64,000 nt of DNA from Jejuia pallidilutea (GTDB lineage: Bacteria; Bacteroidota; Bacteroidia; Flavobacteriales; Flavobacteriaceae): NCBI RefSeq assembly GCF_002973595.1, contig NZ_PVEO01000001.1, positions 496,001 through 560,000 of the forward strand, read 5' to 3'. Numbering within the stretch: position 1 is the first letter of the stretch; every line of letters begins with the position of its first letter. A program made the translations under genes and the position numbers. The notes beneath the pieces were generated by a model, which had not been told where the DNA came from, searched no databases, and saw only the letters and a list, made by a program, of their open reading frames with translations. Positions 3,986 through 32,948 of the stretch are shown one piece after another.

Positions 3986-4539
3986 AATCTGATTTTCTAA
4001 TAACTTAAATAAATTTAATGGACTTCAAAGCAATCAAACAAAAAAAACATATACACATGAAATACAAGTTCTTAACACAACAAATTGTCACTTTTATCGG
4101 TTTTTAACTAAGTAATTTTTTTTTATGTAAAAAAGAAACAAATTAATTTAAATCCATCAATTTAATTGTAGCACAATTTACTGGTATATTAATTTAGAGT
4201 CTAAGTCAAAAAAATCAAAAAACAAGTTTTTATTGAGTTAAAGACAATCACAATTATAGGAATTATCAAAATACATTCAATAAATGAAAAAAACGGATAG
4301 GCTTTTAAATGTTATTTTATGTTTATTTGAATATCCCTTTTTAAATAACAACTTAAATTAAAATGAACAACAACAAGCTTAAACCTCTTACTGCTAGACA
4401 ATATTACCGGTTCGGTTGTTCTCTGAAATGACTTAAAAGATGGGTATTCGTTCACATAATTTTGACATCCATACAAAAAGGTTAACAACCAACGAACCAA
4501 TAAAAGAAAAGCACAATTAATTCATCCAACTTATAAATA
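3986..4539. other. Divergent intergenic region upstream of araB
   Basis: This 554-bp region separates araB (minus) from the plus-strand Tat-signal gene at 4540. I see no convincing gene; a 62-codon open frame on the minus strand has no recognisable composition or neighbours. It contains runs of A and T and one copy of the PUL palindrome at 4215-4236, roughly 230 bp upstream of the araB start. I could not identify a clear TAnnTTTG box for either gene. Confidence 0.6.
4215..4236. promoter_or_regulatory. Candidate PUL operator, copy 1
   Basis: The 22-bp site reads TCAAAAAA, then CAAGTT, then TTTATTGA. It matches the copy at 27503 at 18 of 22 positions and has the same length as three other copies, all in intergenic DNA of this locus. 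A second TCAAAAAAA half-site lies just upstream at 4206. It is between araB and the 4540 gene and could serve either. Function is inferred from recurrence only. Confidence 0.45.
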
Positions 4540-5670
4540 ATGACTAAAGTAAACAGAAGAAAATTTATCAAAACCACGGCATCCGCCTCTGCTGCATTTA
4601 CATTGTTACCATATAGTTGTAAGATAATTGAGTCTCCATTTTCGAATAAAAATTTAAATCTGAAAGAAGTGCGTAATACTATTGGTCGTCATCTTAATCA
4701 TATTTTGGATAAAGACGGACCCTATGGAAGTTACCGCATAGGATTAAAACAGCGACCAGACCTGTACAGCTCATGTGATGTTGCACAAATTCGCACAATT
4801 TGGGGAGAAGACTTACATCAATCACTTTCAGAAAAACAACGGACAGAATGGGCAGATCACATCAATTCTTACATACAAAAACATCAATGGGATGGAAGCT
4901 ATTTTGATCGTTTGGGTCATTCCCCTCTTCATGGTAATGGTATGACGATTGGAGCTCTCGGAGTTCTTGGAGGCAAGCAGGCATTACCAGTAAAACTATA
5001 CGACAAATTCAATAGTCCGGAAAAAGTAATCTCTTGGCTGGAAAATATCAATTGGGCAAGACAATGGTCTGCCTCCCATCTTTTTTGGGGCGGAATTCAT
5101 TGTTATAGTATGAGTAAACATTGTACGGAAGATTGGTTAAACACCGTATTTGACTGGCTTGATCGAAACTTAGATGAGAAAACAGGTTGGTGGCGAAAAG
5201 GGATAGCCCATGACGACATACATCAGGCTCTGGGCGGAAGTGCTCATATTTTACCCATTTACCAACATAAAAATAGAGAATTTCCGTTTCCAGAACGGGT
5301 TATAGATAGTGTACTGGCTATGCAGTTACCCAACAAGCGATGGCTGCAACGGGAAGGTAATCCAGATTTAATGCATTATCTTGAATTGGATGCCCTGTAT
5401 GCATTAAAATATATGCAAGAGTTAGTACCCTATTATCGAAAATCAGATATTGAACATTCTGTGTATAAGTATGGCTTAGAGGTGATTAAATATTGGAAAA
5501 ATGAACAGGAAGCTCTTTTGGCGATGCACCCTCATCGCTTATTATCTGCGGTAGCAATATTTGGCTTACTACAATACCATCTTCCAGAAATGTTTTACGA
5601 TGACCGACAATGGACTGATATTTTTAGTGACATTCGGTTCTATAGAACGGATCTTGTTGAACGTTTATAA
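4540..5670 (+). CDS. Tat-exported protein of unknown function, probably alpha/alpha-barrel
   Basis: I do not recognise the family. The N-terminus has a twin-arginine signal (NRRKFIKTTASASAAFTLLPYS, split here as NRRKFIK followed by a hydrophobic stretch ending LLPYSCK), so it is probably folded in the cytoplasm with or without a cofactor and exported, possibly lipid-anchored at the Cys. The rest is rich in Trp, His and helix-forming stretches (HSPLHGNGMTIGALGVLGG, LFWGGIHCYSM, GWWRKGIAHDDIHQALGG), as seen in alpha/alpha-toroid glycoside hydrolases or lyases. It is the only plus-strand gene in the left part of the PUL and is convergent with the sulfatase at 5744. A glycan-active enzyme is a guess. 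Confidence 0.6.
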   Translation: MTKVNRRKFIKTTASASAAFTLLPYSCKIIESPFSNKNLNLKEVRNTIGRHLNHILDKDGPYGSYRIGLKQRPDLYSSCDVAQIRTIWGEDLHQSLSEKQRTEWADHINSYIQKHQWDGSYFDRLGHSPLHGNGMTIGALGVLGGKQALPVKLYDKFNSPEKVISWLENINWARQWSASHLFWGGIHCYSMSKHCTEDWLNTVFDWLDRNLDEKTGWWRKGIAHDDIHQALGGSAHILPIYQHKNREFPFPERVIDSVLAMQLPNKRWLQREGNPDLMHYLELDALYALKYMQELVPYYRKSDIEHSVYKYGLEVIKYWKNEQEALLAMHPHRLLSAVAIFGLLQYHLPEMFYDDRQWTDIFSDIRFYRTDLVERL

Positions 5671-5743
5671 CACTATTGAAATTATATCATATTATCCGAA
5701 CAAAATTTAAAATTTGAATACGCTTTCACTACCATTAACCTTT

Positions 5744-7456
5744 TTATTTAATTGTTATTGATTCTTTCAAGCGACCGTCTAATTGTGTTCTGAAAGCTTC
5801 AATTCGTTCCTTTTGGCTTTTATCTTTTGCGATGTTAGTCCATTCATTTGGGTCTACATCATGGTCGTATAATTCTTCAGCACCATTCTCATAACGCGTA
5901 TACCTGTACCTATTGTTCCGTAAAGAAAAATTGTGTGCTTTCTTTTCCCCTTGAACAATTTGTTTTCCATTTTCCACCCATTCTCCATAAGTAGCAATCA
6001 ATGCGGCATCAGGCCCTGACCAAGTATCAGTTTCTGGATTCTCTAAAAAAGGACGCAGTGAGAAACCGTCCAAAGAAGCCTGATTGGTATGCCTATTAGG
6101 CACATTGGAAATACCGCATAAATCGTTCAGCGTTGGATAGATATCTATTAAACTTACGGCATGATTAACGGTTTTTCCTTTTTGCTTGGCATTGGGCATA
6201 GCTATAATCAAAGGAATTCTACTGGACTCTTCCCAGTTGGTGTCTTTAAAATTATAATCTTTTTCGCCTAAATGAAATCCATGATCACTTGTAAAAACCA
6301 CAATGGTATTATCAGCATAATCACTGTTTTCTAATGCATCTAAGACTTTACCCAACTGGTCATCTGCAAAAGCGACACTTGCCAAATATGCTTGCATGAA
6401 TTTTTTCCACAGTAACTCTCCGCCTGCTCTCTTATATAAATCAAAACGATCAAAACCATATTTGCGTACATAATTTACAAAGTCCTGACAATCATCCAAA
6501 TCATTTTCCTTGTATGGAGGAAGTTGGATGTTTTCCAGCGGAAACATATCAAAATATTTTTTTGGCACAAACAATGGCGTGTGCGGTCTCACAAAACCAA
6601 CTCCCAAGAAAAAGGGGGCATCATGCTTTTCTTGAAGCTTTTTTATTGCCCATTGCGCTGAAAGTTCGTCTGGCATGGAATCTCTATGACGTTCATCTAT
6701 ATATTCAAACTTTGATGTCCCGTTATACCATCCATCAAAACCCGGAATATTCCTTTCAATATCTGGATCAAAATGAGGCACATCGGAAAGCGGACCAAAA
6801 CTGGTTTCCATGGAGGAGGCTATCTTAGCATGTTCGTCGGTAATAAAATTCGCCAAATACGCCATAGAAGGATGTAAAGTTTTTATAGTCTCACCATTGT
6901 AAACAAAAGGCCCATAAGAAGTTGGTTCGCCATAGGTACTTTGACCATTTTCATCAATCCATGTATTTTTGAAATCACCTTCAAAATGATGTAGCTTTCC
7001 AGTTCCATAAACTTGATATCCGTTGTTTTTAAAATGATCAAAAATACTCACAGCATCCTTAAGAACGGGACTTTCTTTCCAATGAATAAAATCCATTACC
7101 CCAGATTTATTAGGATAAATCCCACTAAATAAACTAGCACGTGAAGGTGCACATATAGGAAAGTTAGAATGTGCATTCATAAATAAAACACCTTCTTCTG
7201 CAAGCTTACTCATGTTTGGTGTATGGGCTTGGACACTTCCTCCCATACCTTCAACTACATCATTTAAATCGTCGCAGATAACAAACAAAACATTATACTT
7301 TTTTGAATTGATGGTTTCGTCCGGTGATTCCGCTACTTTAGTATTGTTGGAAACAACTCCTTTACAACCAAATGCAAAACAGATTATAAAAACACCTATC
7401 CAAATATTAATATTGGATTTTGTTGAAATATATATTTTTGAAAAGAAACCTTGCAT
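5744..7456 (-). CDS. S1 sulfatase, iduronate-2-sulfatase-like, lipoprotein
   Basis: Removes sulfate esters from a glycan after export. The 570-residue protein has a hydrophobic N-terminus ending in FAFGC, a plausible lipobox, so it is likely anchored at the cell surface or in the periplasm. The formylglycine signature CAPSRASLFSG is present with the modified cysteine at residue 102. The start of the fold, NVLFVICDDLNDVVEGMGG, is typical of iduronate-2-sulfatase-like S1 members, and TSDHGFHLGEKDYNFKD supplies metal-binding residues. It is the last gene of the minus-strand block, 4 bp after the sulfatase at 7461. No formylglycine-generating enzyme lies in the window. The S1 subfamily is not certain. 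Confidence 0.92.
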   Translation of the reverse strand: MQGFFSKIYISTKSNINIWIGVFIICFAFGCKGVVSNNTKVAESPDETINSKKYNVLFVICDDLNDVVEGMGGSVQAHTPNMSKLAEEGVLFMNAHSNFPICAPSRASLFSGIYPNKSGVMDFIHWKESPVLKDAVSIFDHFKNNGYQVYGTGKLHHFEGDFKNTWIDENGQSTYGEPTSYGPFVYNGETIKTLHPSMAYLANFITDEHAKIASSMETSFGPLSDVPHFDPDIERNIPGFDGWYNGTSKFEYIDERHRDSMPDELSAQWAIKKLQEKHDAPFFLGVGFVRPHTPLFVPKKYFDMFPLENIQLPPYKENDLDDCQDFVNYVRKYGFDRFDLYKRAGGELLWKKFMQAYLASVAFADDQLGKVLDALENSDYADNTIVVFTSDHGFHLGEKDYNFKDTNWEESSRIPLIIAMPNAKQKGKTVNHAVSLIDIYPTLNDLCGISNVPNRHTNQASLDGFSLRPFLENPETDTWSGPDAALIATYGEWVENGKQIVQGEKKAHNFSLRNNRYRYTRYENGAEELYDHDVDPNEWTNIAKDKSQKERIEAFRTQLDGRLKESITIK

Positions 7457-7460
7457 AAAT

Positions 7461-8990
7461 TTATTCTTTATCTATTATTTCTTGAATCATTTGATCCATT
7501 TTTTCAACCTGTTCCCTATTAGAACTTGCCACGTTAATTCTCTCTTCGGGGTCGGTTTCTAAATTATACAATTGGGGGTCGTGAGAAGCACCGCCTTCAA
7601 TACCTTTATTTGTATAATCGTTTAAAACCCTGTCTTTATCCATTGGCTGGATGTATTTCCATTTACCATCTCTGATAGAAAGTACAAACGACTCTTCTAG
7701 CATAGGGTGTGATGTTTGATTGGATTTTCCCAAAATAACATTTAAGATATCGTTACTATCCTCTGCTTCGTTTGAGTTTGGTGTATGGCCAACAAGTTTC
7801 GCCAGCGATGCATAAATATCTACTTGCGACCAGAGCGCATTATTTTCAGAAGTTTTTATTTTCCCCGGCCAATAAGTAATTGTTGGTACACGGGTACCTC
7901 CTTCAAAAGCGCTGTATTTTCCGCCTCTATAAATTCCAGATGGTTTGTGGTCGCCTAATTTTTCTATGGCAAAATCTTCATAACCATCATTAAGTACAGG
8001 GCCATTATCACTTGTAAAAATGATTAAAGTCTTATCTGCCAATTTCAACTTTTCAAGTTCTTTTACTATTTCTCCCGTTACCCAATCCATTTGGGCAATG
8101 GCATCACCACGGGGCCCCATACTACTAGCACCTTCAAAACGGGGATGTGGCAATCGAGGCACATGGATATCATGAAAAGAAAAATATAAAAAAAATGGCT
8201 GTTCTTTACTGGACTGAATAAAGTTTTTTGCTTTACCTGTCAATATATCAGGGAAATCTTCATCTTTCCATTCAGCGGAATACCCTCCTTTCATGGTACC
8301 TATTCTACTCACACCATTAATAATAGTGCCACTATGTTGCTCATCTGCCGCATAGCGCAATAATTCTGGATGTTTCCAGCCCGTTGGACGCGCTCCAATG
8401 GTGTCTGTTGTTTTATAACTTACTTCTAAAGAATCATTTTTGGAAAGATTGACTACTTTACCGTTTTCAGTATAAACAGCAGGTACTCTATCCCCTGTTG
8501 CCGGCAACAAGAAACTGTAATCAAATCCTATTTCATGTGGACCTGGTTTTAATGCTTTATTCCAATTGATATCGCCATTCCCTAGCCCTAAATGCCATTT
8601 TCCTATAACTGCAGTTTTATAACCTTCCGACTTTAGCATAGACGCTATAGTTGGAGTTTCTGGACGAATAAGTAAAGGCGCATCACCCGGAAGTATTTCT
8701 GCTTGTTGCCTAAAGGCATATCGACCTGTAAGCAAGGTATATCTTGAAGGGGTGCAAGTTGCAGCGGAACTATGAGCATCTGTAAAACGGACACCATTTT
8801 TTGCCAACTTATCAATATTTGGGGTTTTTACCCCTATTGCTCCATAACAGCTAACATCACCATATCCCAAATCGTCTACATAAAAAATGACAATATTGGG
8901 TTTTACTGTCGGTTTATCTTTTTTACAAGTCAGCAAAACAAATGAACCTAACAATAGAAATAAAGTTTTATATGATTTTATTAATCTCAT
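7461..8990 (-). CDS. S1 sulfatase, arylsulfatase A-like, lipoprotein
   Basis: A 509-residue secreted sulfatase. The N-terminus (MRLIKSYKTLFLLLGSFVLLTC) is a lipoprotein signal. Metal-binding VDDLGYGDVSCYGA is followed by the formylglycine motif CTPSRYTLLTGR, cysteine at residue 79, and then GKWHLGLG and TSDNGPVLNDGYEDF, which complete the S1 active site. It is separated from the next sulfatase by only 4 bp, so the two are translated from one message. The substrate is not readable from the sequence. Position after two GH2 genes suggests it acts on a sulfated galactose-containing oligosaccharide, which is inference. Confidence 0.93.
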   Translation of the reverse strand: MRLIKSYKTLFLLLGSFVLLTCKKDKPTVKPNIVIFYVDDLGYGDVSCYGAIGVKTPNIDKLAKNGVRFTDAHSSAATCTPSRYTLLTGRYAFRQQAEILPGDAPLLIRPETPTIASMLKSEGYKTAVIGKWHLGLGNGDINWNKALKPGPHEIGFDYSFLLPATGDRVPAVYTENGKVVNLSKNDSLEVSYKTTDTIGARPTGWKHPELLRYAADEQHSGTIINGVSRIGTMKGGYSAEWKDEDFPDILTGKAKNFIQSSKEQPFFLYFSFHDIHVPRLPHPRFEGASSMGPRGDAIAQMDWVTGEIVKELEKLKLADKTLIIFTSDNGPVLNDGYEDFAIEKLGDHKPSGIYRGGKYSAFEGGTRVPTITYWPGKIKTSENNALWSQVDIYASLAKLVGHTPNSNEAEDSNDILNVILGKSNQTSHPMLEESFVLSIRDGKWKYIQPMDKDRVLNDYTNKGIEGGASHDPQLYNLETDPEERINVASSNREQVEKMDQMIQEIIDKE

Positions 8991-9054
8991 AATTTAATAA
9001 TTTTGAATAAGTGATTGAAATATCTAAGGTGCTTTTAACTAATTTATCGAGTTA

Positions 9055-11148
9055 TTAGTTATAGTTCCATATAACCTGATCTTCAAATTTTTTAGATTTA
9101 TTTTGCCCCTTTACAACAATAGTATTCTCCCCCTTTTTTAATATAACTTCAGGAGAAATAACAATCCCACTTTCTGGTTTACCCGTACCAACTACTTTTC
9201 CGTTTAGATAAAATTTCACTTTATCAAGTGTAGTATATACCTTAATTTTAGTTTTGCTTTCAATGCGATTTTTAAACCTTCGCTCGGCGATATAAAGCAT
9301 AGGACTATCATTCCAATTGGCTTTATAGAAGTAGTAGGCGTCTTTTTTGGTTTTTCTATCTTCGGTAACCAAACCTTTATCGTTTAAACCATTTGTATCA
9401 CCTTCAGATCGATGTGCTGCTGCGACATCAAACATTAACCAAGCAAATTTCCCCCAAATAAACGGACGTTCTTTTAATTGCATCCAATAATCTTCATGAT
9501 ATTTTGTTTGCCACTGTTCTGGATGCCATTTACCAGCAGGTGCTGGAGCAACTAAAGAATCAGATTGATGATGTATGCTTGCTCCAGCTCCATATTCGCT
9601 AATCGCCATGGCTCTATTTGGAAACTCTTTGTGCCATGTATCTGCCCATTCTCCTATTTGATTTGTAGTGCTTCCGTATTTTGCTCCATACCATCCATAA
9701 TATTTATTAAAACCAATTACGTCTGTAATATCATTGTTATGGTTATCTTGATTACTTGCAACTATGGTTAACCTATATGGGTCTTCTTGTTTTGCTAGCA
9801 TATTTAATTCCTTGACATAATCATGCGGATCGTCACCTCTAATTTTAAGTTCGTTAAATAAGCCCCAAAAGAAAATACTGGGCCTGTTGTAATTTTGACG
9901 AATCATTTCTTTTAGCTGTTGTTTTCCGTTTTCTTTAAAGCCTTTAGAATTGATAAATCCAGGCCCCTCATAACCACCTGGCCCGACTTGTGGAATTTCA
10001 GTATAAACCACAACTCCTAAAGAGTCACACATATTATAAAATATTGGGGAATGCGGATAGTGGGCCGTTCTTATAGCCGTTACCCCCATATCCATCATAA
10101 TATCGAAATCTTCTTTATAATCTTCTTTTGTAAGTGCAGAACCTTTGTCTTTTTTGGCTTCGTGGTAACAAACACCTTTTAAGTCGTAATAAGCACCGTT
10201 TAGAAAGAATCCCTTATCTACATCAATTTTGTAAGAACGTAAACCTATAGGCTGCACCATACTATCTAAAACCTTGTTGCCTTCTTTTATAAATGTTTTA
10301 AATTGATAGCGGTAAGGATTTTTAACGCCATTCCATAAATGGGGGTTTTTAACCCGTATATTTTGACTCCAAACCGTTTTTTTATTTGCTTCTCCTAAAA
10401 GACTGGTAGTTTCAGAAACTATTTTCTTTCCGGTTGTATCCCAAATAGTGCTTTCAATGGTCAGATTTTTAGAAATATCAGACTTGTTTGCAATACTTCC
10501 ATGTATTTTTAAATCTGCTTCTTTAGCATCCACTTTTTCTTGAGATATAAAAACCCCTGAAGACCCATAATTGGAAAGATCAAAATGTATTGGGTTTTTA
10601 ATCAATAAACTTACTGGCCTATGAAGCCCACCGTAAATATTAAAATCTCCCACTAGTGGCATCACTTCTGAATCATAGGCATTATTCACCGATATTTTTA
10701 ACTCATTTTCTTTAGAAAAATCAAGAAAATCAGTAATATCAACTGTAAAACCCGTATAGCCCCCTTTGTGATGGTAAACATGTTTTTCATTTACAAATAC
10801 ATCAGTTACAGTTGCTGACGCATCAAATTTTAAAAAAAAGTGTTTTTTGCTATCATAGGAAGATACATCCAGCATTTTTTTATAAATCCCCAATCCTCTA
10901 TAATATCCCACATAGACCTCTTTAACGTCCAGAGCATTCCATGTATGCGGCAAAGTGACCGTTTGCCAGTTTGGTTTTTTTTGCATGTTGTGTTCGTAAC
11001 CTTTTACAAACTCCCAATTTTTATTTAAATCTATTTTTTGCGCATGTAACACGCTAACAGAAATTGTCAATAGAAAAATAAAAAAAATACAGATTTTAGA
11101 CTGTTTATATAAATCACACATGTTTATTGATTTCATATTAATTTTCAA
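9055..11148 (-). CDS. GH2 glycosidase, beta-galactosidase-like
   Basis: A secreted GH2 enzyme of 697 residues that should release a beta-linked sugar, most likely galactose. A signal peptide ends near VSVLHAQ. The jelly-roll sugar-binding domain (HTWNALDVKEVYVGYYRG), immunoglobulin-like domain and TIM barrel (GVCYHEAKKDKGSALT) follow in order. The acid/base is E433 in FFWGLFNELK and the nucleophile is E518 in ISEYGAGAS, so the enzyme looks active. Its start overlaps the end of the upstream GH2 gene by 11 bp, a sign of translational coupling. The exact sugar specificity cannot be settled by reading. Confidence 0.93.
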   Translation of the reverse strand: MKINMKSINMCDLYKQSKICIFFIFLLTISVSVLHAQKIDLNKNWEFVKGYEHNMQKKPNWQTVTLPHTWNALDVKEVYVGYYRGLGIYKKMLDVSSYDSKKHFFLKFDASATVTDVFVNEKHVYHHKGGYTGFTVDITDFLDFSKENELKISVNNAYDSEVMPLVGDFNIYGGLHRPVSLLIKNPIHFDLSNYGSSGVFISQEKVDAKEADLKIHGSIANKSDISKNLTIESTIWDTTGKKIVSETTSLLGEANKKTVWSQNIRVKNPHLWNGVKNPYRYQFKTFIKEGNKVLDSMVQPIGLRSYKIDVDKGFFLNGAYYDLKGVCYHEAKKDKGSALTKEDYKEDFDIMMDMGVTAIRTAHYPHSPIFYNMCDSLGVVVYTEIPQVGPGGYEGPGFINSKGFKENGKQQLKEMIRQNYNRPSIFFWGLFNELKIRGDDPHDYVKELNMLAKQEDPYRLTIVASNQDNHNNDITDVIGFNKYYGWYGAKYGSTTNQIGEWADTWHKEFPNRAMAISEYGAGASIHHQSDSLVAPAPAGKWHPEQWQTKYHEDYWMQLKERPFIWGKFAWLMFDVAAAHRSEGDTNGLNDKGLVTEDRKTKKDAYYFYKANWNDSPMLYIAERRFKNRIESKTKIKVYTTLDKVKFYLNGKVVGTGKPESGIVISPEVILKKGENTIVVKGQNKSKKFEDQVIWNYN

Positions 11149-14100
11149 GATTTGGTATTGGAACTAAAAGCATCTGAGCATCAGGAAAAACCGCTTCTTT
11201 TACAAAAGGGTTATACGTCTTTACAGTGATTAAATAATCATTCCATTGCTCTGCTTTGTATTTTTTAAGTTCTGGAAAAGCTGTGACAAGCCCCTTTTTT
11301 AAGTCGTTGCTCCATACCCGAAGGCTTTTATCTATGGTTCGCCTGTAATAATTCCCGATTTTATTTGGATCTGAGGTAAAACGCATATCCAAATAATCTA
11401 TTTTATTTTCATCGAGGTTATTTAAAAACTGAAGATCTTTTGGAGACATGACCATACCTTCCTTCATAATTTTATTCACCAAATATTCCTTCATAGTTTG
11501 CACATATTTTGGATGTAAATTTTGATTCTCTAAAAAACGTTCTACACTTCTATAATCATAAAACGATTCCAATAAAAAATTAAAATCATCGGCTATCAAC
11601 ACCCCTTTAAGCCTATAAATGTTTTCTGCATTTAAATCAACAAAAACTTGCATACCCTTACTCTCACTAGTAGCAGGACTTAAATTAGGGTTTCGTTCTA
11701 AAATTAGCTTTTTAAGTGACTGTTGGTATGTTTTCTTTTCTAAACCCTTAGGAAACTGAACGTTCTCGCGCACTTTTTCTATTTCTTCCAATCGATCTGA
11801 CTTTACAAACCAATTGGATTGTTTTTTTATTTTAGAAATATAATTCCCTTCTATTTTATTTTGAATAACTCCAAGAGAACGCTCATTTTCTCTTGCTTGT
11901 GTTTCTATACTACACGTGCCACTTTCAAGTCCAGGACTTTCAACTTTTAAAGTTATTTTTCCTGATTTCCCAGAACTTCTCACCATAGCTTTTATAGGTA
12001 AAACGGTATAACCTAATCCGTTTTTTGTCTCTATCAAATTAATATCAGAGATGTATGTTTCTGGTGTTACCAAACTTCCTTCTCCACTAATCGACCATTT
12101 TAAGTCTGGCGATGCGTGTAATACTTCGTTGCCATGGGCATCGTAGCCTTTTACTTCTACAAGAGTAACTTGCGACAAACTATTATCTACCATCGTTTTT
12201 TCGGGTATGAGGCGTAACGATTTTATTTCACTCGTCATTGGTAGTTTGTGCTCGTATTTTTTTCCATTTTTCCAGCCTATTGCTAATAAATCTTCATTTT
12301 TCACTTTAACCTTTTCAAATCTATTAACATAAAAGGACGTACTATCAGGATATTTAAAACCGATTTTTTCACGCCCAGAGTACAGTGCTAATGAATCGCA
12401 ATTACTATTAACTGTAATCGTTTTTGCTTCACCTAAAAATTGACTTCGCCATGTATCAGGTTGAATAAAAATAGTTGGTATGTTGGTATATAGTGCTTGG
12501 GTTAAATGATATACATACTTTGGATATCGAAAATAATCTACCCAACCTTTTGGGTTAGTATGTAACAATGGTGCTTGTTTATACTCCCTATCTGCTCCAT
12601 GGTCATTATATAACCATGTCATACAATTATCGCCCAAAATACCTCTTACACTTCCATCACGAACAATTGCTAAATCGTGTTGCCATTTTTCGGTTCCAGC
12701 CCATTGCCCATCCTTTGGATTAGGATTGATGCCTTCTGGCACATCTTTATCGATTTCCCAGCCTCTAACGGTTACTCGTAATAATTGTTCTAAATCTAAA
12801 TTATCACTATCGTGATCTATAAAATCTCCAGCATTTTCTCCTTTCCTTAGGTGAATGATTCTGGTAGTGTCTTCTGCTACAGCCCATTTTGAATCTGCGG
12901 CATTATTAGTTTCGTTCCCCATGCTCCAAAACATGATGCTAGGATGATTTCTATCCCTACGGATCATTTCTATAACGTTTTGCTGCTGAACCTCTTCACT
13001 AAAATTTAAGTTTTTGATATTAGGAACTTCTTCAACTGTTATAATCCCTAAACTATCAGACAATTCGTAAACATAAGGATCATTTGGGTAATGCGCATAT
13101 CGCATAAAATTATGTCCTAGATTCACTTTAATATCCAATATATCTTGCTTTGTCCACTCCTTTGGCATGGCATCGCCTACGTAAGGATATTCCTGATGCC
13201 TATTGGTACCCCTTATATTAATTTTTTCACCATTCAAATAGAAATCGTTGGTATCATAATCCCAATGAAAATGGCGTATTCCAAAAGTAGTCACCAAAGA
13301 ATCCACTTGCTTTCCATTACTCAACACACGACTCACCGCTTTGTACAAATGCGGATAATCGACTGACCAAAGCATGGGGTTTTCAATCTTATCAATAGTT
13401 TCTTGGATTCCTATAATGGTATCTTTTGAAATAGTAACATCAGACGTTATTTGCTTTATTTTTTCTCCATTTGGATCAAACACTTCTGTTTGAAGCTCTA
13501 TGTCTGCCGATGACTCTGTATTATTCTGTACAAATGTTTTTATTGCTACCGTCGCACTATTTTTACTAACTTCTGGAGTGGTAATAAATGTCCCTCCTTC
13601 ATGTTTATAACTTCCTTGGTATGGAATATTGATAGTGTTTTTAACGCTTAATCGCACATCTCTATAAATACCGCCATATATATTCCAATTTCCAGCCGTC
13701 ATTGGTGGAATACGATATGGGTCGCTCATTTTATTGCTTACCGCAACGGTTAAAATATTTTCTTTATTGAATTTCACATGTTTTGAAATTGGAACATAAA
13801 ACGATGTATAGCCTCCTTTATGGTCTCCTATAAAATTTCCATTGAGATAAATTCTGCAATATTTTTGCACACCGTCAAATTCCAATGACAGTTGTTTTTT
13901 TTCTAAATCAGCATCAATCTGAAAACTCTTTTTATAATAGCCCCAGCCATTAAACCAATAAGAATCATCACGCTCTGACGCCGAAGCTATAAATGGATGA
14001 ATTTCTCCAGTAGTTTCATAAGTTGACCAAGTATGAGGCAGCCCTACATTAAGCCACGTACTATCCTTTATTTCATTACTTAACAAGTCTGTATCAATAA

Positions 14101-14260
14101 TTTCAGAAGGATTGTAGGTAAACAGCCAATCTTGATTAAAGTTGACCTGATATCTTGAAGGTTTAGCCTCTATTCTATCTCTATTTGCTAATTGACAACT
14201 GTACATGAAGACGCCTACACATACAAAATTTAAGAAATGGTATAACTTTTTAATATTCAT
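11138..14260 (-). CDS. Large GH2-family protein, lipoprotein
   Basis: A 1040-residue GH2 family protein with a lipoprotein-type N-terminus (VFMYSC). The sugar-binding domain (PHTWSTYETTGEIHPF), immunoglobulin-like domain and barrel (RGTNRHQEYPYVGDAMP, NLGHNFMRYAHYPND) are recognisable. The acid/base is present as E450 in FWSMGNETNN. The usual nucleophile motif E-Y/F-G is not evident; the corresponding region reads GILGDNCMTWLYNDHGADRE. A long C-terminal part of about 350 residues carries immunoglobulin-like segments and a helical tail. It lies 13 bp after the propeller gene at 14274 and overlaps the next GH2 gene. It may be an unusual GH2 subgroup or inactive. Confidence 0.85.
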   Translation of the reverse strand: MNIKKLYHFLNFVCVGVFMYSCQLANRDRIEAKPSRYQVNFNQDWLFTYNPSEIIDTDLLSNEIKDSTWLNVGLPHTWSTYETTGEIHPFIASASERDDSYWFNGWGYYKKSFQIDADLEKKQLSLEFDGVQKYCRIYLNGNFIGDHKGGYTSFYVPISKHVKFNKENILTVAVSNKMSDPYRIPPMTAGNWNIYGGIYRDVRLSVKNTINIPYQGSYKHEGGTFITTPEVSKNSATVAIKTFVQNNTESSADIELQTEVFDPNGEKIKQITSDVTISKDTIIGIQETIDKIENPMLWSVDYPHLYKAVSRVLSNGKQVDSLVTTFGIRHFHWDYDTNDFYLNGEKINIRGTNRHQEYPYVGDAMPKEWTKQDILDIKVNLGHNFMRYAHYPNDPYVYELSDSLGIITVEEVPNIKNLNFSEEVQQQNVIEMIRRDRNHPSIMFWSMGNETNNAADSKWAVAEDTTRIIHLRKGENAGDFIDHDSDNLDLEQLLRVTVRGWEIDKDVPEGINPNPKDGQWAGTEKWQHDLAIVRDGSVRGILGDNCMTWLYNDHGADREYKQAPLLHTNPKGWVDYFRYPKYVYHLTQALYTNIPTIFIQPDTWRSQFLGEAKTITVNSNCDSLALYSGREKIGFKYPDSTSFYVNRFEKVKVKNEDLLAIGWKNGKKYEHKLPMTSEIKSLRLIPEKTMVDNSLSQVTLVEVKGYDAHGNEVLHASPDLKWSISGEGSLVTPETYISDINLIETKNGLGYTVLPIKAMVRSSGKSGKITLKVESPGLESGTCSIETQARENERSLGVIQNKIEGNYISKIKKQSNWFVKSDRLEEIEKVRENVQFPKGLEKKTYQQSLKKLILERNPNLSPATSESKGMQVFVDLNAENIYRLKGVLIADDFNFLLESFYDYRSVERFLENQNLHPKYVQTMKEYLVNKIMKEGMVMSPKDLQFLNNLDENKIDYLDMRFTSDPNKIGNYYRRTIDKSLRVWSNDLKKGLVTAFPELKKYKAEQWNDYLITVKTYNPFVKEAVFPDAQMLLVPIPNLEN

Positions 14261-14273
14261 TAAAGTTTAGAAT

Positions 14274-15656: not shown

Positions 15657-15662
15657 TTCAGT

Positions 15663-17117: not shown

Positions 17118-17131
17118 TATTAAAATATTAA

Positions 17132-18557: not shown

Positions 18558-18591
18558 ATGCAAAATCATCATCAAGACTTCTTCTTATTAT

Positions 18592-20288: not shown

Positions 20289-20292
20289 AGTA

Positions 20293-23200: not shown

Positions 23201-23430
23201 TGATAAGTGCCGTCAAAATCAGTAACCGCACCTACAGTAGGATTATTAACATCAACAACTGAAACCCCAGGTAAAGGAAGCCCATCTACAGCAGAAATAA
23301 CTTCTCCACTTATGACAATTTCACCCTGCTGAGCGTGTGATGTAAAATGAGTTGTTAAAAGCAAAAATGCAGACAAGAAAAACAAGGGGTACTTATTAAT
23401 CTTAAATTTTAAGAGTCGAATAAAATACAT
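20293..23430 (-). CDS. SusC/RagA-family TonB-dependent outer-membrane transporter
   Basis: A 1045-residue TonB-dependent receptor that imports oligosaccharides with its SusD partner. After the signal peptide (ending near HFTSHAQ) comes a carboxypeptidase-regulatory-like domain (GEVISAVDGLPLPGVSVV, AVTDFDGTYQI), the LNEVVVVGYG segment, then the plug with GARAANGVIIVTTKKGKSG and the C-terminal 22-stranded barrel ending in the aromatic-hydrophobic tail LGFNIKL. There is no anti-sigma-binding STN extension, so regulation through an ECF sigma factor is not indicated. It heads the susC-susD unit behind a 506-bp regulatory region. Confidence 0.95.
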   Translation of the reverse strand: MYFIRLLKFKINKYPLFFLSAFLLLTTHFTSHAQQGEIVISGEVISAVDGLPLPGVSVVDVNNPTVGAVTDFDGTYQIKLGSGSKALRYSYVGYVTQEILINNKSTINVSMSEDIATLNEVVVVGYGEKKKITQTGAVETVRFSDVVNQPVTNSGQLMYGKFSGVQITQASGLPGADASSVTIRGVGSFGGATPLIVIDNIQYDGLAAFNNLAPSDIESVSVLKDASASAIYGARAANGVIIVTTKKGKSGSLQIDYSGFTGFQSVTVTPEYLDAANYARLKNEADINTNGLNAPLRYSEANIQAILDGSQPDRYANTKWSDEILRSAPIHNHYLSFSGGTDKTTFRASIGYLDQEAVVKGKFESKRYNFSLNLNSKIKDWLTLSSVTNAYWRQFRGPAGGANAINGNNGIITQFQRSAPTIPAYYSNGEFGIVDGSYENVNFSYPIENALFRGVRGNYEDDEINIAERLGLKFDITKDLSFETSGSVNLNFNNISNFSPSYSVFDYVGELVNDFPNNSLTNTSSFNYRLINENILRYAKTFNGNHSISVLLGHSVIYNKNDGFTGRLEGFPSNGVEEFDGGGVVNPEVTGGASDFSLQSFFTSVNYTYKDKYIFDFSVRKDGSSRFGPNNRYADFPSGAVAWRISEENFLQNVNWLSELKFKASYGVTGNDDIGNYIFQQNYNSNIDYLLGNDIIVGGVALTGLANPTIQWESIEQLDLGVDIGLFKNRLNITSHYFKRDSKDILYTRYPIPNTIGVTNLAAQNAASMTNSGLEFSLNYRGAINDFKYDIGGSFTKFDDNEVTSLGNRGLETIDGQSIIRVGEPFRAYFGYQALGVFQTPEEVAEAPRQFGNNRTAPGDLRYADLSGPDGTPDGVVDAFDRTVIGNPYPELIYNMVANASYKGIDINVVFEGVSGLDRILNGNGQIPFAFDRNNSLSYWIDRWTPENPSTTLPRVGGQNNEIVSSFYVQDASYLRLRNLEIGYTVPTLVTQKFGIDKLRVFFSGQNLLTFTKMENFDPERRTSTDSDQNTPLYKVYSLGFNIKL

Positions 23431-23936
23431 AATTTTAATTTTAAAAAATTGGTTAATAATAGTTTTAGTGGTTTTTTTTTAATTGATTCCATAAACGCAA
23501 AGAGTGCTTTTTGTTTTAAAAATGCAATTGCATAGTGTTTTCAAACATTTATAATCCATAATCAGTCTGTTTCTTTAACTACAAATTTTACATAAAGAAA
23601 CATCTTATTAAGTCTATTTTCATTGGTTATTGGCTAATTTTACACTTTCTACGGTTATTACACATCTATTTATCTGATGCACAACCGCTTTAAAAAAGAA
23701 ATTAAAGCAGTAGCGGAATCAAATCTACAATTAATAACACTTTAACAATTATCATATTCTGTCAATAAATAGCATTATCTTGATTATTCAAGTATACTTT
23801 CTTGAAAATAGTGATAATTATGACAACACCTCAGTGAATAAGCTTAAATTGGATTGGAAATCAAGAAGCATCTTAATTTGCTGAGATAGAATAAAAAAGA
23901 GAATTCTTGTATAATATTTATCCTTATCATCATAAT
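23431..23936. other. Regulatory region upstream of susC
   Basis: No gene is visible in these 506 bp. They hold a perfect 9-bp inverted repeat with a 15-bp spacer at 23569-23601, a 20-bp site TTCAAG-N8-CTTGAA at 23787-23806, and the sequence GCAAAGAGTGCTTTTTG near 23499, which resembles the shared 22-bp palindrome but is shorter. The beta-helix gene at 23937 ends at the right edge of the region, so its transcript may read through into susC unless it is stopped. Confidence 0.55.
23569..23601. promoter_or_regulatory. Inverted repeat upstream of susC
   Basis: GTTTCTTTA at 23569-23577 and its exact reverse complement TAAAGAAAC at 23593-23601 are separated by 15 bp. The pair lies about 140 bp upstream of the susC start in DNA with no gene. 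The spacing is too wide for a small hairpin terminator and no T-run follows, so a protein-binding operator is more likely. Confidence 0.4.
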
Positions 23937-25568
23937 CTATGGTTTAATAGCTCCTATAAACTTTAAATTTTTGATTTCCTGATCCAGAATGTCATAAAAC
24001 ATGGTATGATTATTTTTTGCACCTATGCTGTTGCTGTCGTTCTGCATTTTCTGTATGAATATACCCTTAGAAACCAGCTCTATGTTATTTGGAATATAAC
24101 TTTCCAAACTTAACCCATTAGGGTTTAAAAACTTCGGATCGCCGTAAATGGGGTTGGTGTCGCTGGGATAGATATCCTCTGGCCAGCTGTCATGGGAAAT
24201 GAAAATATTATTACTAAAAAAAACATTCTTTACAATCTGATCTTTTACTTTTTCTGAACCATATTGGTCTTCCTCAACAAGTTTGGTTTTGCCATTGACC
24301 GCAAAAATGTTATTGGCAATTAAAATGCCATTGCTAGTTTTTTCAATTGCAATTTTTGGTGTATAGCTGCCATCTGTATAAATGGTATTGTTATAAAAAT
24401 AAGTATTTACCGGCCCCTTTTCTACACGGTGGTTTCCTTGGTAACCACTTAACCAGAAAATTTTACCTTCCTGAAAAGCACCGTTTTCATCCTTTACCCT
24501 CCAGCCATCATTTACGCTTACATTAAACCTATAGATACAGTTATAATTGTTGCCCAGTATTTCACAAAACCCTCCGGCATTATAAGCACTTAAATTGTAT
24601 TGAATGACAATGTTTTCGCAGTTATAATCAATATGGGCTCCTGTGGAATCCCCAGGGCCATTGGCAAAAAGAAATTTGTTCCGTTCGATAAGTACGTTTG
24701 AGGAGCCCCAAGTCCATAAACCGCTTCCACGACCCCATTTTCTCGAGTCGTCGTTACTTCCGGAATGTTTGACCACATTGCCTTCTACGTGCACGTCTTT
24801 CACTGAGGACATTTGAATACCAGGCCCTCCGGTAAATAGCACGTGGTTATTCAAAATCTCCACATCGTGAATGTTCCCGTTCTTTCCGGTAAGTTTAACC
24901 CCTGTATGACCTACATTTTGAACTTTTGTGTTTTCAATTTTTATTTTTGCAACGAAACCCTTTTCACAAAGGCTTTTTACCCGTATGCCCCAGCCATAGG
25001 CTTGGGTGCCGTTTGCGGTTCTAACCTCTTCAGCTCCTCTGACAAAGCCTTGGTTTTTATTGAAAATGTCATATATAAATAAGTCTTTAACCGCTATATG
25101 GTTCATTTCTCCAGTCTTTGAGGATGTGATCAAAATTCCGCAGGACATGGCATTGCTATTCAATTCCTGACCATGTCCGTTCCCTGTAATAGCCAAATTC
25201 TCAATGCTTACATTACTTGAGTTTTCAATAAGTATTCCGGTGTCCATCCCTTTAAAATCTATGATAGCTTTTTCCGTCTTCATAGCTTGACCTAACCATG
25301 AATGAGATAGGATTTTAATAGGTTTTTCTTTTGTTCCATCAGTATCAACAATTTTAATAGAACCAAAATGAACAACTTCTGAAGCAAGCAAAATCCTGTC
25401 ACCAGCTTTCAACTTGATGTTTTGAAGGGCGTCTAAGGTTTTGAATGCATCTACTTCAGTTAAACCAGTATTGGAATTTGACCCCGTTTTGGGATGGAAG
25501 TAATAATCTGTGGCATGGATATTTATATTGCCAAGTATCAAAAAAATTAAAAAGGAAAAGTGTCTCAT
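23937..25568 (-). CDS. Secreted right-handed parallel beta-helix protein
   Basis: Probably a polysaccharide lyase or glycoside hydrolase of the pectin-lyase fold. I prefer the Met at 25568, which gives a clean signal peptide (MRHFSFLIFLILGNINIHA), over the Met 15 codons upstream. The mature part begins DYYFHPKTGSNSNTGLTEVDAFKTL, a common opening of such proteins, and contains many short repeats of the N-x-h-x-N-N-x-h type (VEILNNHVLFTGG, NVLIERNKFLFANG). No catalytic set could be assigned. Located directly upstream of susC and downstream of a lyase-like propeller gene. Confidence 0.8.
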   Translation of the reverse strand: MRHFSFLIFLILGNINIHATDYYFHPKTGSNSNTGLTEVDAFKTLDALQNIKLKAGDRILLASEVVHFGSIKIVDTDGTKEKPIKILSHSWLGQAMKTEKAIIDFKGMDTGILIENSSNVSIENLAITGNGHGQELNSNAMSCGILITSSKTGEMNHIAVKDLFIYDIFNKNQGFVRGAEEVRTANGTQAYGWGIRVKSLCEKGFVAKIKIENTKVQNVGHTGVKLTGKNGNIHDVEILNNHVLFTGGPGIQMSSVKDVHVEGNVVKHSGSNDDSRKWGRGSGLWTWGSSNVLIERNKFLFANGPGDSTGAHIDYNCENIVIQYNLSAYNAGGFCEILGNNYNCIYRFNVSVNDGWRVKDENGAFQEGKIFWLSGYQGNHRVEKGPVNTYFYNNTIYTDGSYTPKIAIEKTSNGILIANNIFAVNGKTKLVEEDQYGSEKVKDQIVKNVFFSNNIFISHDSWPEDIYPSDTNPIYGDPKFLNPNGLSLESYIPNNIELVSKGIFIQKMQNDSNSIGAKNNHTMFYDILDQEIKNLKFIGAIKP

Positions 25569-25656
25569 GATTATTTGATTTTTATTTAACCCATCTTGAC
25601 TTTTTCTAATCAAAAATCATTAGCAAGGTTATGACTTGTTTAGAAGATTGCTTTTC

Positions 25657-26883
25657 TTAATCATCTGGAATCAAAACCATAAAGGTTTTAACTACACCAG
25701 AACCTACACATTTATTAAAATACAATCTTTTTCCATCTCTGGAAAATGATGGATTGGTATGAAAAGCTAAATTCCATGTAGTGTATTTATCATTTGAAAC
25801 CACATGTTGCCAAAAGGCTGTTGTATCCCCATGACGATAAAGCTTAAGTATCACGGGGTCATTACCGTACCAAGATTCTGATGCGAAATATTCTCTATCA
25901 TTTGAAGCACCAAGATGATTGCCAGAACCTCCTAAAGTTTCCAAATAATTGGTTCGCAAATCCCATCTTCGCAACGTATTGTCGTTTGTTTTTCCATCCG
26001 CTATTTGATTGTCATGCCCCATAATACTCTTATTATCATACCAAGAAAAATGCATAGGCTTCGGGCCAAAGAAGGTGGTTTTTCTAGTTTTTAAATCAAA
26101 TATTACCAAGTGTTTATAAGTTTCTGTTTTCGGTCCCACATTGAGGCGAAAAGCTATCTTCTGTCCATTGGGGGCATATTGCAAGTGTGAAATACTCCAT
26201 TTTTTTAAGGATTTAAAGTTGCTTGAATCGAAATAATCAACCAAACCTTTAAAGTCTTCAACATCTGCGATTTCTTTTTCATTGCCCACTTTATCTTTTT
26301 GATAAATTGTACTAAGTCCCGTTTGTTTTGAATTTGTTGAAAATAGTATGTTTTTATTGTAAGCATGGTGGCCTAAATGGCCTTTAAAAGCAGGAATTAA
26401 ATGTTTTCCATTTAAATTTACCATTCTGATGCTATCATCCTGATAAGCTATGGTTTCATTGTCAACCCACTGAAATTTAGAACCATTATGCACTTCTACG
26501 TTACTTATATTTGTTATTTTTTTGTGGCTAGAAAGATTTGTATTGCATATCCACAACCCTCCATTAACTTTTTCGTTTCTATCGTTTTTAGGAATAGAAT
26601 TAAATGTAACATAAGCTATTTTGCTGCCTTCAGGGTTTTCAGGAGTTGTATTATAATAACTGAAAGAAGAACTGCATCCCTTTGGCCCAACTCTTATAGG
26701 TTCACCACTTTTAATCTCACTAAAATTGATAGTATTGTTTTTTGTTTCAGAAGATTTATCGGTGTTCGAACTTTTACCACAGCTAGCTAATGCTAGAGTT
26801 AAAATAAACAATAAAAAGGAAATAAGAACAACCGAATAGTTGTAGAAATTTATACAATCAAAACTAAAAAAAAAATTTTTCAT
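25657..26883 (-). CDS. Oligogalacturonate-lyase-like beta-propeller lipoprotein
   Basis: A 408-residue lipoprotein (lipobox LASC) with a TolB/WD40-like propeller. It differs from the two Tat-exported relatives in using a Sec lipoprotein signal and in being shorter. Histidine-bearing blades (FKGHLGHHAYNKNILFS, GNHLGASNDREYFAS, LAFHTNPSFSRDGKRLYFN) are compatible with a PL22-like fold but the metal ligands cannot be assigned with certainty. It lies 88 bp upstream of the beta-helix gene, probably in one transcript. Upstream is a 770-bp region with two copies of the PUL palindrome. Confidence 0.68.
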   Translation of the reverse strand: MKNFFFSFDCINFYNYSVVLISFLLFILTLALASCGKSSNTDKSSETKNNTINFSEIKSGEPIRVGPKGCSSSFSYYNTTPENPEGSKIAYVTFNSIPKNDRNEKVNGGLWICNTNLSSHKKITNISNVEVHNGSKFQWVDNETIAYQDDSIRMVNLNGKHLIPAFKGHLGHHAYNKNILFSTNSKQTGLSTIYQKDKVGNEKEIADVEDFKGLVDYFDSSNFKSLKKWSISHLQYAPNGQKIAFRLNVGPKTETYKHLVIFDLKTRKTTFFGPKPMHFSWYDNKSIMGHDNQIADGKTNDNTLRRWDLRTNYLETLGGSGNHLGASNDREYFASESWYGNDPVILKLYRHGDTTAFWQHVVSNDKYTTWNLAFHTNPSFSRDGKRLYFNKCVGSGVVKTFMVLIPDD

Positions 26884-27259
26884 AATTTAATTTAACATTT
26901 TACAAGCCCGTGTATGATTCAAAAGATTAAAGTTTTTGAGATTGGATTATGAATATTTTCTATAGTTTTAATACACACAATTCCATATCTATATTTGCTG
27001 TCAGCCCTGCTTTTTTTTAATCCATGGTATTCAAATCTACCAAAGTATTAACTGAATAATCGACTAATTTTTTTAGCTAGAAGCTATTCACTAAGTTGGT
27101 CTTTAAATTTCATGTATTTTCAGAATAAAAAGATTATCTGCGAATATTTACTGGAATACTGCTGATTAAAAACACATTTGACTCTGCATTATGAAAATAT
27201 AGTTTTCAAGATAGATACAAAAATACTGGCGTCATGATAATTAAGCTACTGCTTTTGCA

Positions 27260-27281
27260 TCAAAAAATAACACTTCTTTGA
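27260..27281. promoter_or_regulatory. Candidate PUL operator, copy 3
   Basis: Reads TCAAAAAA, TAACAC, TTCTTTGA, one mismatch from a perfect inverted repeat. It lies about 380 bp upstream of the propeller lipoprotein gene at 25657 and shares length and layout with the other copies. Confidence 0.5.
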
Positions 27282-27502
27282 TGGAAACTAAAAGAGAAAA
27301 GTAATTTTAGCACATATAATCTCTTACAAAACAAAAAGAACAAGGAAATCAAATAGGTATCCCTGCTCTTTTCAAACTAAACTAAACTAAACATTTTTAA
27401 TCCTTTTCAAGAATACAATATTCTTATACTTTACAACTAAATCCATTCAATGGATGAACACAAATGTACCAACTAAAGCTGCTAAAGACTACTGTTAATT
27501 AT

Positions 27503-27524
27503 TCAAAAACCAAGACTTTTTTGA
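27503..27524. promoter_or_regulatory. Candidate PUL operator, copy 4
   Basis: Reads TCAAAAAC, CAAGAC, TTTTTTGA. It shares the 22-bp length with the other copies and lies in the same intergenic region as copy 3, 222 bp further from the 25657 gene. Confidence 0.5.
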
Positions 27525-27592: not shown

Positions 27593-27650
27593 GCTCTTTT
27601 TTAAAACTAAGCATATATCTATTTAAGATTTTGCAGTTAGATAGCAACTA

Positions 27651-29495: not shown

Positions 29496-29521
29496 TTTTA
29501 TTTACACTTTTAGTTTCTATT

Positions 29522-30955: not shown

Positions 30956-31087
30956 TGTACTAAATTTAAACTTCAAAAGTATTATTAAAAATTGTTTTTG
31001 TAAAAACAGCATGTTGCTGTAGAGCTGATTATTATAAAAAAGCTCCAAGAATTCATAGCGTTTTTTACAAACTCAATTTATCGCTAT

Positions 31088-32605
31088 TTAATCATTAATG
31101 TTTGTGTTTCGTTCAATTTCCTGCTGTGGTGATTTCCAAACAATGGACATATCGTTATAAGGAATATCTCCCCTATCTCTATCTACCGCTGGAATATTTC
31201 TTTTATGTGCAATCAAGAACATCAAACGTTTTCATTCAAAAGACAATTCTTTCATATACTCATTATCAATGTGCTGTTGGGTAATCGTTCCTGTTAACGG
31301 TAACAGACCTGCTCTTTGTCTTAAAATATTAAGATTGGTTCTTGTTTTGGCATTATCTGAATTTAACAAAATGATTGCTCTCATCAAATGGAATTCTGGA
31401 GAACGAAATGCCGTATAGTTAGACACTAGTTTATCAAATTTAAAACATCACACATTATAATCATCTACATAATCATTTTTAAAAGCGGGGTCTTGAACTT
31501 TTTCATAACGTTGGAAATTTCCCCCTAGGCAATTACTTTCTTGCCCCCTATATTGACCAAAAACATAATAGCTGGGTTTTTCTCCGCCTTGAGAAGCCGT
31601 AAAAAAATATTGTTGATACATGGATGTGTTGATCATTTGGTTAACCCAATCATTATTGGTATTTTGGTAAATATTCAATGACTCAAAACGGCTCAATTGC
31701 CTTAAATCAAACAAAAGCGGGCCCAAAGGCTTAGGATTAGGTAATCCATCATTAGTTAGGGCTTGCTTAATCACACCTCTCCATTGGGGACTATTTGCCA
31801 ACTCGACCATATTGATGGGTGAGTTTATACCAGGTTCAATATTAAAACCAAAAGTTGATTTACCCGATTTACAAGATTTTGTAGTGATAAGGACAACACC
31901 ACTGACACATCTTGAACCATAAATAGCGGTTACTGAAGCGTCTTTCAAAACCGTAAGGCTTTCAATATCCTGAGAATTAATGGTGGTGTTAAAAGCTCCT
32001 GTTAACACTGGAATACAATCAATCAAAACCAGTGACTCTGTAATGGCCGTAATGGAGTTTATCCCCCTAATTTGGATTCTGCTTGCAGTATCTGGAGCAC
32101 CTCCAGACGTTTTAATTTGAAGCCCTGAAACGATTCCTTGTAATGCTTGCTCAAAAATTGGAGCAGATATTTCCCTGATTTGATTAGATTTTATTGTTAA
32201 AATGGCAACACTATTTTCTCGTTTGGTTTGAGTTCTGTATCCTACGATGACAACTTCATTCAATTGTTGGATATCTTTCTCAAGTTGTACATTAATTGTT
32301 GTTTGACCAGAAACTACAAGCTCTTTTGATACATACACCACATAACTAAAAACTAAAACAGATGAATTATCAACATCTATGGAATATGCGCCATCAAAAT
32401 CTGTTTGCTCTCCATTTGAGGTACCTTTTTCAACTACTGTTGTACCCGGCAAAGGCAAATCAGAAGGCTCTGTAACAATTCCTGTGACAATCTTCTCTTG
32501 TGCATTTATATTCACAAGAAAGGCAAAAAACATGAATGCTGTAGCCATACATCTACAATAACTATCAACATCATGTTTTAAGATTCTAAATAGAATTTCT
32601 TTCAT
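31088..32605 (-). pseudogene. Chimeric susC-susD remnant with two in-frame UGA codons
   Basis: One reading frame of 506 codons runs from 32605 to a TAA at 31088 and is broken only by TGA at 31448-31450 and 31232-31234. The first part is the N-terminal third of a SusC: regulatory-like domain, LNEVVIVGY and the plug with KDASVTAIYGSR. The last part is the C-terminus of a SusD: FRSPEFHLMRAIILLN, LNILRQRAGLLP, KELSFE-stop-KR and an ending DIPYNDMSIVWKSPQQEIE. The junction is near FQRYEKVQDP. A deletion has therefore joined the two genes. Several conserved plug glycines are Cys or Val. It is a second, dead susCD pair of the PUL. Confidence 0.85.
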
Positions 32606-32948
32606 GAATTTTGTTTTTTTAGTTAGTGTTTATTTGATTATTTTTTACTGTATAACATAGTCTACTCTAAAACAAAATCATAATTTGATTGCTATGAAAG
32701 CTAATATCTGTTTAAGAATTTGTTAAAAAATGTATGATGGTAAAAGTATCTGGAAAGAATATTAAATACTTATGCTTAATTTTCAAAAAATAGCACTTTT
32801 TTGATTTCCTATGTTAAAATGAAAAATTATTTGTTGATTTAACCCGATTTTTAGTTTTCACGCCAGATAAAATAGCTTTTTGAGAACAATAAAAACCAAA
32901 TTAAGTAAGGTACTATCACTAAATAATTTACCCAAAAAATATAAAACA
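32606..32948. other. Divergent intergenic region between dead susC and dead fucP
   Basis: No gene is visible in these 343 bp. They hold one copy of the PUL palindrome at 32783-32804, about midway between the two divergent pseudogenes, so it could have controlled both when they were active. No clear TAnnTTTG box was found for either. Confidence 0.6.
32783..32804. promoter_or_regulatory. Candidate PUL operator, copy 5
   Basis: A perfect inverted repeat: TCAAAAAA, TAGCAC, TTTTTTGA. It is nearly identical to copy 2 (18592), differing only in the spacer. It lies 178 bp upstream of the susC remnant and about 145 bp upstream of the transporter pseudogene, which suggests that both belonged to the same regulon. 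Confidence 0.55.

Follow-up and report, generated by a model that had tools for sequence, protein, structure and literature searches.

AraC-type activators of polysaccharide utilization loci (PULs) are a known kind of regulator. In Bacteroides, the AraC-type domains of hybrid two-component system (HTCS) proteins have predicted motifs that are direct repeats with a mean spacing of 21 bp (PMC3878776), and the carrageenan regulon of Zobellia galactanivorans has an AraC-family regulator, CgrA (ZGAL_3159) (PMC5698469); here and below, comparisons refer to the sections of the cited papers that were consulted. We analyzed a stretch of 64,000 nucleotides from Jejuia pallidilutea (contig C1, positions 496,001-560,000, of a 4.11 Mb genome; hereafter the window), in which a sequence-only reading had noticed a 22-bp palindrome, TCAAAAAM-N6-TTYTTTGA, five times in the intergenic DNA of a PUL and had taken it for an operator. 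The palindrome is the promoter-distal part of a longer composite element, which is probably an activator promoter with tandem half-sites bound by a free-standing AraC-type activator of one sugar regulon.

Like the HTCS operators, the element would precede PUL genes and carry half-sites in tandem on the same face of the helix, with a mean period of 21 bp; unlike the HTCS systems, the regulator encoded nearby, an AraC protein, is free-standing and has neither kinase nor periplasmic sensor, and the distal half-site lies within a palindrome (PMC3878776). With CgrA the locus would share a free-standing AraC-type positive regulator, a marine flavobacterial sulfated-glycan regulon and oxidative sugar catabolism genes, a likeness drawn from description; the text consulted contains no CgrA operator (PMC5698469). 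BtAraR, of the NrtR/Nudix type, controls araBAD-type genes such as are found here, but it belongs to another protein family, loses DNA binding on arabinose as a repressor would, and recognizes a 21-bp semipalindrome with GTGT-type contacts (PMC4666351). The Crp-like BT4338 of Bacteroides, a proposed activator, likewise has a 22-bp palindrome before sugar operons, but this reads wwwTATGTTnTAnAACATAwww, is global and, in the sections consulted, is described without a second block (PMC3878776). Both an AraR-type repressor site and a Bacteroides Crp-type palindrome were rejected, as the letters differ. No operator for a free-standing flavobacterial AraC protein was met in the open literature searched, nor any known name for the present element, in agreement with the sequence-only reading, which had not recognized it. 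Judged from the sequence, the locus is distinct in that its regulator is free-standing, the distal half of its operator is palindromic, and its promoter grammar appears readable from the letters. A rigid grammar tied to one regulator would allow regulons to be read from sequence.

All five palindromes were found where they had been reported, four of them (18592, 27260, 27503 and 32783) as exact fits and the one at 4215 with one mismatch. With at most two mismatches, the 22-mer has 13 strand matches in the window as compared to a mean of 2.1 in shuffled sequences (0 of 100 shuffles reached 13), and no match lies past position 32804, confirming for the window that copies are confined to its PUL half. 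The copies at 4215 and 27503 are identical at 18 of 22 bases by an eye count, as had been described. The second and fifth copies had been called perfect inverted repeats; this holds for the 8-bp arms, whereas the whole 22 bp pairs at 9 of 11 positions.

Six strong copies, all on the minus strand, align without gaps across 81 columns. These are the four exact palindromes of the window and two copies to the left of it in the same island, at C1:489,662 and C1:473,337. The element consists of TCAAAAAAGTGCTATTTTTTGA, four loose bases, a second block (approximately TWARCAKWAGTMTTTA), about 15 loose bases and finally TAnnTTTG or a one-letter variant, with 34 bp between the palindrome and this last box in all six copies. 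Mean column identity is 71%; the blocks are kept, and the spacers vary in their letters and are constant in length. The last box corresponds to the -7 box used by the primary sigma factor in Flavobacterium psychrophilum, TAnnTTTG, which extends there from -12 to -5 and for which TAnnTTGY is a second type (PMC9723704). By this measure, transcription would start about 5 bp downstream of the boxes at 18550, 27218, 27461 and 32741. The promoters show no consistent TTG at -33 (by eye, alignment columns). Remnants of a dispersed repeat, or promoters duplicated without regulatory meaning, could explain why two of the copies lie 243 bp apart, but such an origin is highly improbable given kept blocks, variable spacers of fixed length and the recurrence of the element before non-orthologous genes in other genomes.

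The spacing was also tested from the palindrome alone, using the five reported sites and C1:489,662; the copy at C1:473,337 has two mismatches to the 22-mer and hence fell outside this test. TAnnTTTG with at most one mismatch stands at exactly +34 on the minus strand in 5 of these 6 sites, the site at 4215 being the single miss (probability approximately 1e-6 once corrected for the number of offsets tested), and in 7 of 8 copies in the genome when strong and weak copies are counted together. The sequence-only reading had placed one site about 35 bp beyond a TACATTTG box, which understates the pattern, and its suggestion of an activator-type site is consistent with the fixed promoter geometry. 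The geometry is also that of an AraC-type operator, with a fixed position by RNA polymerase overlapping the -33/-35 region.

The core of the palindrome (AGTGCTA) is asymmetric and points to the downstream gene in all six strong copies. All 7 copies compared (the six strong ones and the copy in genome G020 described below) have G9 and T10, and the mirror positions vary. Thus, based on the asymmetric core and the common orientation toward the gene, the element is not a simple dyad operator. The 22-mer as the whole operator was rejected on these two grounds and on the genome counts given below: the conserved unit is 64 bp long, asymmetric and, in the strong copies, found in a single orientation, with a second block before the promoter.

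The asymmetry also bears on the idea that two proteins share the element, in which the palindrome would hold a symmetric dimer, such as an unlinked regulator or the LacI-type protein encoded at 55120-56127, and the second block would hold another factor, for example one of the AraC type. The 8-bp arms are indeed perfectly symmetric in three copies, and a LacI-family gene is present in the window. LacI operators are symmetric dyads, core included, near the LacI gene. Here the core is asymmetric, the six strong copies share one orientation, and none of the window copies (at most two mismatches) is found near the LacI gene. Furthermore, no LacI-type protein was recognized by eye among open reading frames (ORFs) of at least 80 amino acids in the two related outside loci (G020 C52:1-20000 of 28,429, and L099). 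We therefore regard this sharing as unlikely. An AND gate, in which a symmetric dimer on the arms acts together with an AraC-type activator on the asymmetric core and the -33 block, is a speculative extension to which we likewise assign a low probability. If true, glycan degradation, arabinose catabolism and the broken transport genes would fire only when two signals agree, and one promoter grammar would let the regulons of free-standing AraC proteins be called in marine flavobacteria generally.

The 22-mer by itself is a weak descriptor, because genome-wide matches with at most two mismatches (72/74) are no commoner than those of the reversed control (77/86). At 0-1 mismatch it occurs at eight distinct places, 6 of which lie in C1:489,662-528,804; of the remaining two, C1:747,614 falls between ORFs and C5:121,517 within one that by eye is trp-pathway-like. 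Neither the second block nor a -7 box at +34 was seen by eye at four loose 22-mer matches (C1:747,614, C1:605,525, C1:222,309 and C4:332,616). Many copies at random genomic positions had been named as an outcome that would speak against an operator; the strong copies are not dispersed across the genome.

A gapped model of the whole element was trained on the six strong copies and used to search the genome. The training copies scored 55-64 bits and the next best match 15.7 bits, so nothing comparable is found elsewhere among the 150 of 6181 first-look candidates that were scored; weak copies can be missed, since only some candidates are scored. An ungapped position weight matrix (PWM) of 64 columns was applied to 414,012 positions on both strands of 207 kb, a part of the genome covered with slight overlap. 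The six strong copies obtained leave-one-out scores of 23.9-46.6, followed by a copy upstream of araB (21.4), a copy upstream of susC (20.4) and then 12.1, 10.1, 9.4 and 9.4. The araB copy thus ranks 7 of 414,012, behind the six training sites, and the susC copy ranks 8; in the window they score 12.2 bits (E-value 0.0095) and 11.7 bits (E-value 0.014), respectively. The four hits below them are tentative as further copies. Three lie upstream of correctly oriented ORFs (window position 4266 on the plus strand, an ALDH gene and an AKR gene) and one is intra-ORF; the copy at 4266 could be chance. By eye, no convincing lost ORF was found in any of the three frames of six leaders of 135-332 nt (27260, part of 27503, susC, C1:473,337, 32783 and araB).

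Arabinose catabolism and the pseudogenes had been placed in one regulon, and this is supported by the copies upstream of araB and between the truncated susC (minus strand, from 32605) and the broken FucP-like gene (plus strand, approximately 32956-33652), with the araB copy being weak. Since a strong activator site remains at the broken susC promoter, either the decay of susC is recent or the site has been kept. With araBAD in the island and one site upstream of araB, the operator of an arabinose-responsive repressor such as the NrtR/Nudix-type AraR known from Bacteroides might be considered. It has very little probability in our view: the BtAraR oligonucleotides carry AGTGT/ACACT-type sites with different letters, the araB copy is among the two weakest and repressor sites need no fixed 34-bp spacing. 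As for an AGTGT-N-ACACT semipalindrome, the left half of the element resembles AGTG and the right half is TTTTTTGA.

The sole transcription factor recognized among the ORFs in C1:428k-530k is an AraC-family protein of 294 amino acids (C1:465,177-466,058), encoded approximately 30 kb left of the window's left edge. A C-terminal pair of helix-turn-helix domains (PF12833, 92.9 bits; PF00165, 75.7 bits in two stretches) places the protein in the family, and an N-terminal AraC_binding domain passes marginally (PF02311, 23.6 bits versus a cut-off of 21.1). The genome has 17 AraC-type domain places, of which this alone lies between C1:396k and C1:678k. Self-matching of the half-site AAGTGCTATTTTTTGA peaks at a lag of 21 (72 of 160 positions in a set of ten copies that includes weak ones, as compared to 36-63 at the other 14 lags). 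A half-site pair at lag 21 is also found upstream of the araC gene itself, where 1 of 500 shuffles reached its score.

The same period and activator role would be expected of an HTCS with an AraC-type domain and 21-bp direct repeats that acts from elsewhere in the genome, and there are eight places with Y_Y_Y sensor domains. None of the eight lies in C1:428k-560k, the nearest on the contig being at C1:394k and C1:677k, and the G020 and L099 loci have araC and no recognizable HTCS in the stretches viewed. An HTCS inside the island was rejected on the count of sensor places, and control by a distant one appears quite improbable.

We infer from the sequence a mechanism in which the AraC-family protein binds two tandem half-sites approximately 21 bp apart. 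The distal half-site would be AGTGCTATTTTTTGA, inside the palindrome, and a second, weaker half-site (approximately ARCAKWAGTMTTTA) would cover the -33 region, so that the protein, held 34 bp from the -7 box, could recruit RNA polymerase. Sulfatases, GH2 enzymes, susCD and araBAD would then be switched on together. A sugar handled by the oxidative gene set near the regulator is the probable effector; this set comprises AKR/SDR proteins, an amidohydrolase-type lactonase, an enolase-superfamily dehydratase, an FAH hydrolase and a mutarotase. We take this set to resemble the non-phosphorylating L-fucose route, which the broken FucP-like permease fits.

Two related loci in other genomes pair the element with a close relative of this AraC protein. 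An operator-model scan of 397 genomes of the family, own included, with 11 candidates scored per genome, gave as the best non-own match G020 C52:7190-7233 (30.7 bits, next 23.5), upstream of a susC and with TACTTTCG at exactly +34. Matches with an E-value of at most 0.01 were found in 113 of the 397 genomes, own included; all except own and G020 scored at most 23.5 bits and were treated as noise, the letters having been viewed for eight and the surrounding genes for two. The best non-own AraC homologue in the same genomes is encoded by G020 as well (C52:10643-11497, 62% identical, 389 bits, next 233), as a 282-amino-acid open frame located 3.4 kb from the operator on the same contig; homologues with an E-value of at most 1e-20 occur in 292 of the 397 genomes, own included. 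A scan of the GTDB collection identified an Allomuricauda metagenome-assembled genome (locus L099) with an araC product 60% identical. Its operator, before a GH88-type gene, has a PWM score of 19.9 and ranks 1 of 26,676 positions in the locus (next 9.6). Absence from related PULs had been named as a second adverse outcome; the element recurs in these two. In L099 two araC genes lie in tandem (L099:10001-11786), their products 60% and 52% identical to our protein.

In the related loci, close orthologues are seen among the catabolic neighbours (FAH 77%, SSS transporter 78%, lactonase 57%, enolase-superfamily protein 55%, AKR 47%) but not among the target genes (susC 32-40% along part of its length, GH88 33%), suggesting that the operator has been kept by the regulon and is not one inherited promoter. 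The recognition-helix regions of the two orthologues agree with ours at 18/20 positions each, and at 19/23 and 20/23. The second L099 protein agrees at 15/20 and 20/23, and eight homologues of 34-40% identity at 8-11/20 and 10-15/23. A model scan of the eight loci around these latter homologues found no composite promoter; the best match was a lone half-site of 12.7 bits, approximately 50 bp upstream of the araC homologue in genome G225. Upstream of this homologue (39%), 0 of 500 shuffles reached the score of the lag-21 pair, but one strong half-site drives that score and another lag is higher; between the two L099 araC genes 11 of 500 shuffles reached it, and another lag is again higher.

Across 395 genomes of the order, an AraC protein with an E-value of at most 1e-60 was found only in our genome and in G203 (40%). 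Among 11 genus relatives (12 genomes with own), operator matches reached at most 21.6 bits, which is noise, and no AraC protein exceeded 35% identity. That, of these 12, our genome alone has the operator and a close AraC protein fits an island gained as a whole, and it looks as if this gain were recent.

Several observations weigh against control by the free-standing AraC protein. The regulator gene is 7-63 kb from the sites, and the catabolic operons nearest to it have PWM matches of 9-10 points at most. True symmetry is present in the outer arms, a property not required of an AraC half-site. A direct repeat was not supported when PWM self-similarity was tested by column shuffling (best score -9.3 against a shuffle mean of -8.7), and the tandem repeat for this reason stays a reading. 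The lag-21 pair is absent upstream of the G020 araC (235 of 500 shuffles reach it), and upstream of the L099 araC it is reached in 9 of 500 shuffles with other lags scoring higher. Only two outside loci back the pairing of operator and araC. In the genome-wide gapped search the araB copy came 13th, with an E-value of 0.31 that is within noise, and the susC copy was missing from the list; these two copies are therefore supported by their geometry and location. In the araB copy the -7 box, TAAATTGT, is two letters off TAnnTTTG and fits TAnnTTGY.

Table 1. Promoter elements and genes of the island in the window (window coordinates)
Feature	Position	Strand	Evidence and scores	Placement and remarks
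Strong composite promoter	18550..18613	-	Block 18592-18613, second block, TACATTTG; 64.4 bits; leave-one-out PWM 44.6	Upstream of genes 18478 to 5744
Strong composite promoter	27218..27281	-	TATTTTTG; 56.3 bits; leave-one-out PWM 23.9	
Strong composite promoter	27461..27524	-	TACATTTG; 64.3 bits; leave-one-out PWM 46.6	243 bp upstream of the 27218..27281 copy
Strong composite promoter	32741..32804	-	TACTTTTA; 58.4 bits; leave-one-out PWM 42.6	Promoter of broken susC
Weak composite promoter	4173..4236	-	4215 palindrome, 34 bp, TAAATTGT	Upstream of araB
Weak composite promoter	23720..23783	-	TAGATTTG at exact spacing	Upstream of susC-susD; missing from the sequence-only reading
Tentative divergent copy	4266..4329	+	PWM 12.1, the next score after the weak sites; TTTATTTG correctly spaced	Toward gene at 4540
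araA, L-arabinose isomerase	92..1585	-	AraA Pfam domains	
araD-like, class II aldolase family	1608..2309	-	PF00596	
FGGY kinase, araB-like	2321..3985	-	PF02782/PF00370	
Likely operon	5744..18478	-	ORFs, Pfam, NCBIfam	Below 18592 site; sulfatase-like (5744, 7461, 15663), GH2-like (9055, 11138), two propeller-like secreted proteins (14274, 17132)
susD-like gene and susC	18753..23430	-	susC TIGR04056, 889 bits; SusD model 67 bits, below cut-off	
PD40-type protein and beta-helix protein	23937..26883	-		Below 27260/27503 sites
Truncated susC	31448..32605	-	PF07715, PF13715	Plug and carboxypeptidase-like domains only; below 32783 site
Broken FucP/MFS-like permease remnant	32956..33652	+	Frame pieces with stops; identified by eye	Divergent from susC

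The genes of the likely operon at 5744..18478 have NCBIfam scores below the curated cut-offs, and its two propeller-like proteins, which were assigned by eye, have zero Pfam or NCBIfam matches. Behind the truncated susC (31049-32605), SusD-like C-terminal scraps in broken frames were seen by eye. To the left of the window, a sulfatase-like gene at C1:470,083-471,602 is split into two overlapping ORFs and apparently decayed; it sits in the minus-strand gene run below the strong site at C1:473,337.

Transposase genes of the ISL3 and IS110 types, identified by Pfam, lie where the island ends on its right (34077-35969). An M20-type peptidase-like gene to the right of the island (36795-38186) is 66.5% identical to a gene located 1.9 kb past araC in G020 (L088:13372-14757), a resemblance that hints at a shared insertion place. 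Mobile-element-like genes were seen by eye at C1:430-446k (relaxase, coupling ATPase, ParB, SSB), adjoining uronate catabolism genes; of these, only the mannitol-dehydrogenase-type protein was tested. To the right of the araC gene, the window encodes regulators of the Lrp type (38401), the LacI type (55120) and the response regulator type (51978). The LacI-family gene adjoins a truncated TonB-dependent receptor with a plug domain (55120-56958), away from the main island.

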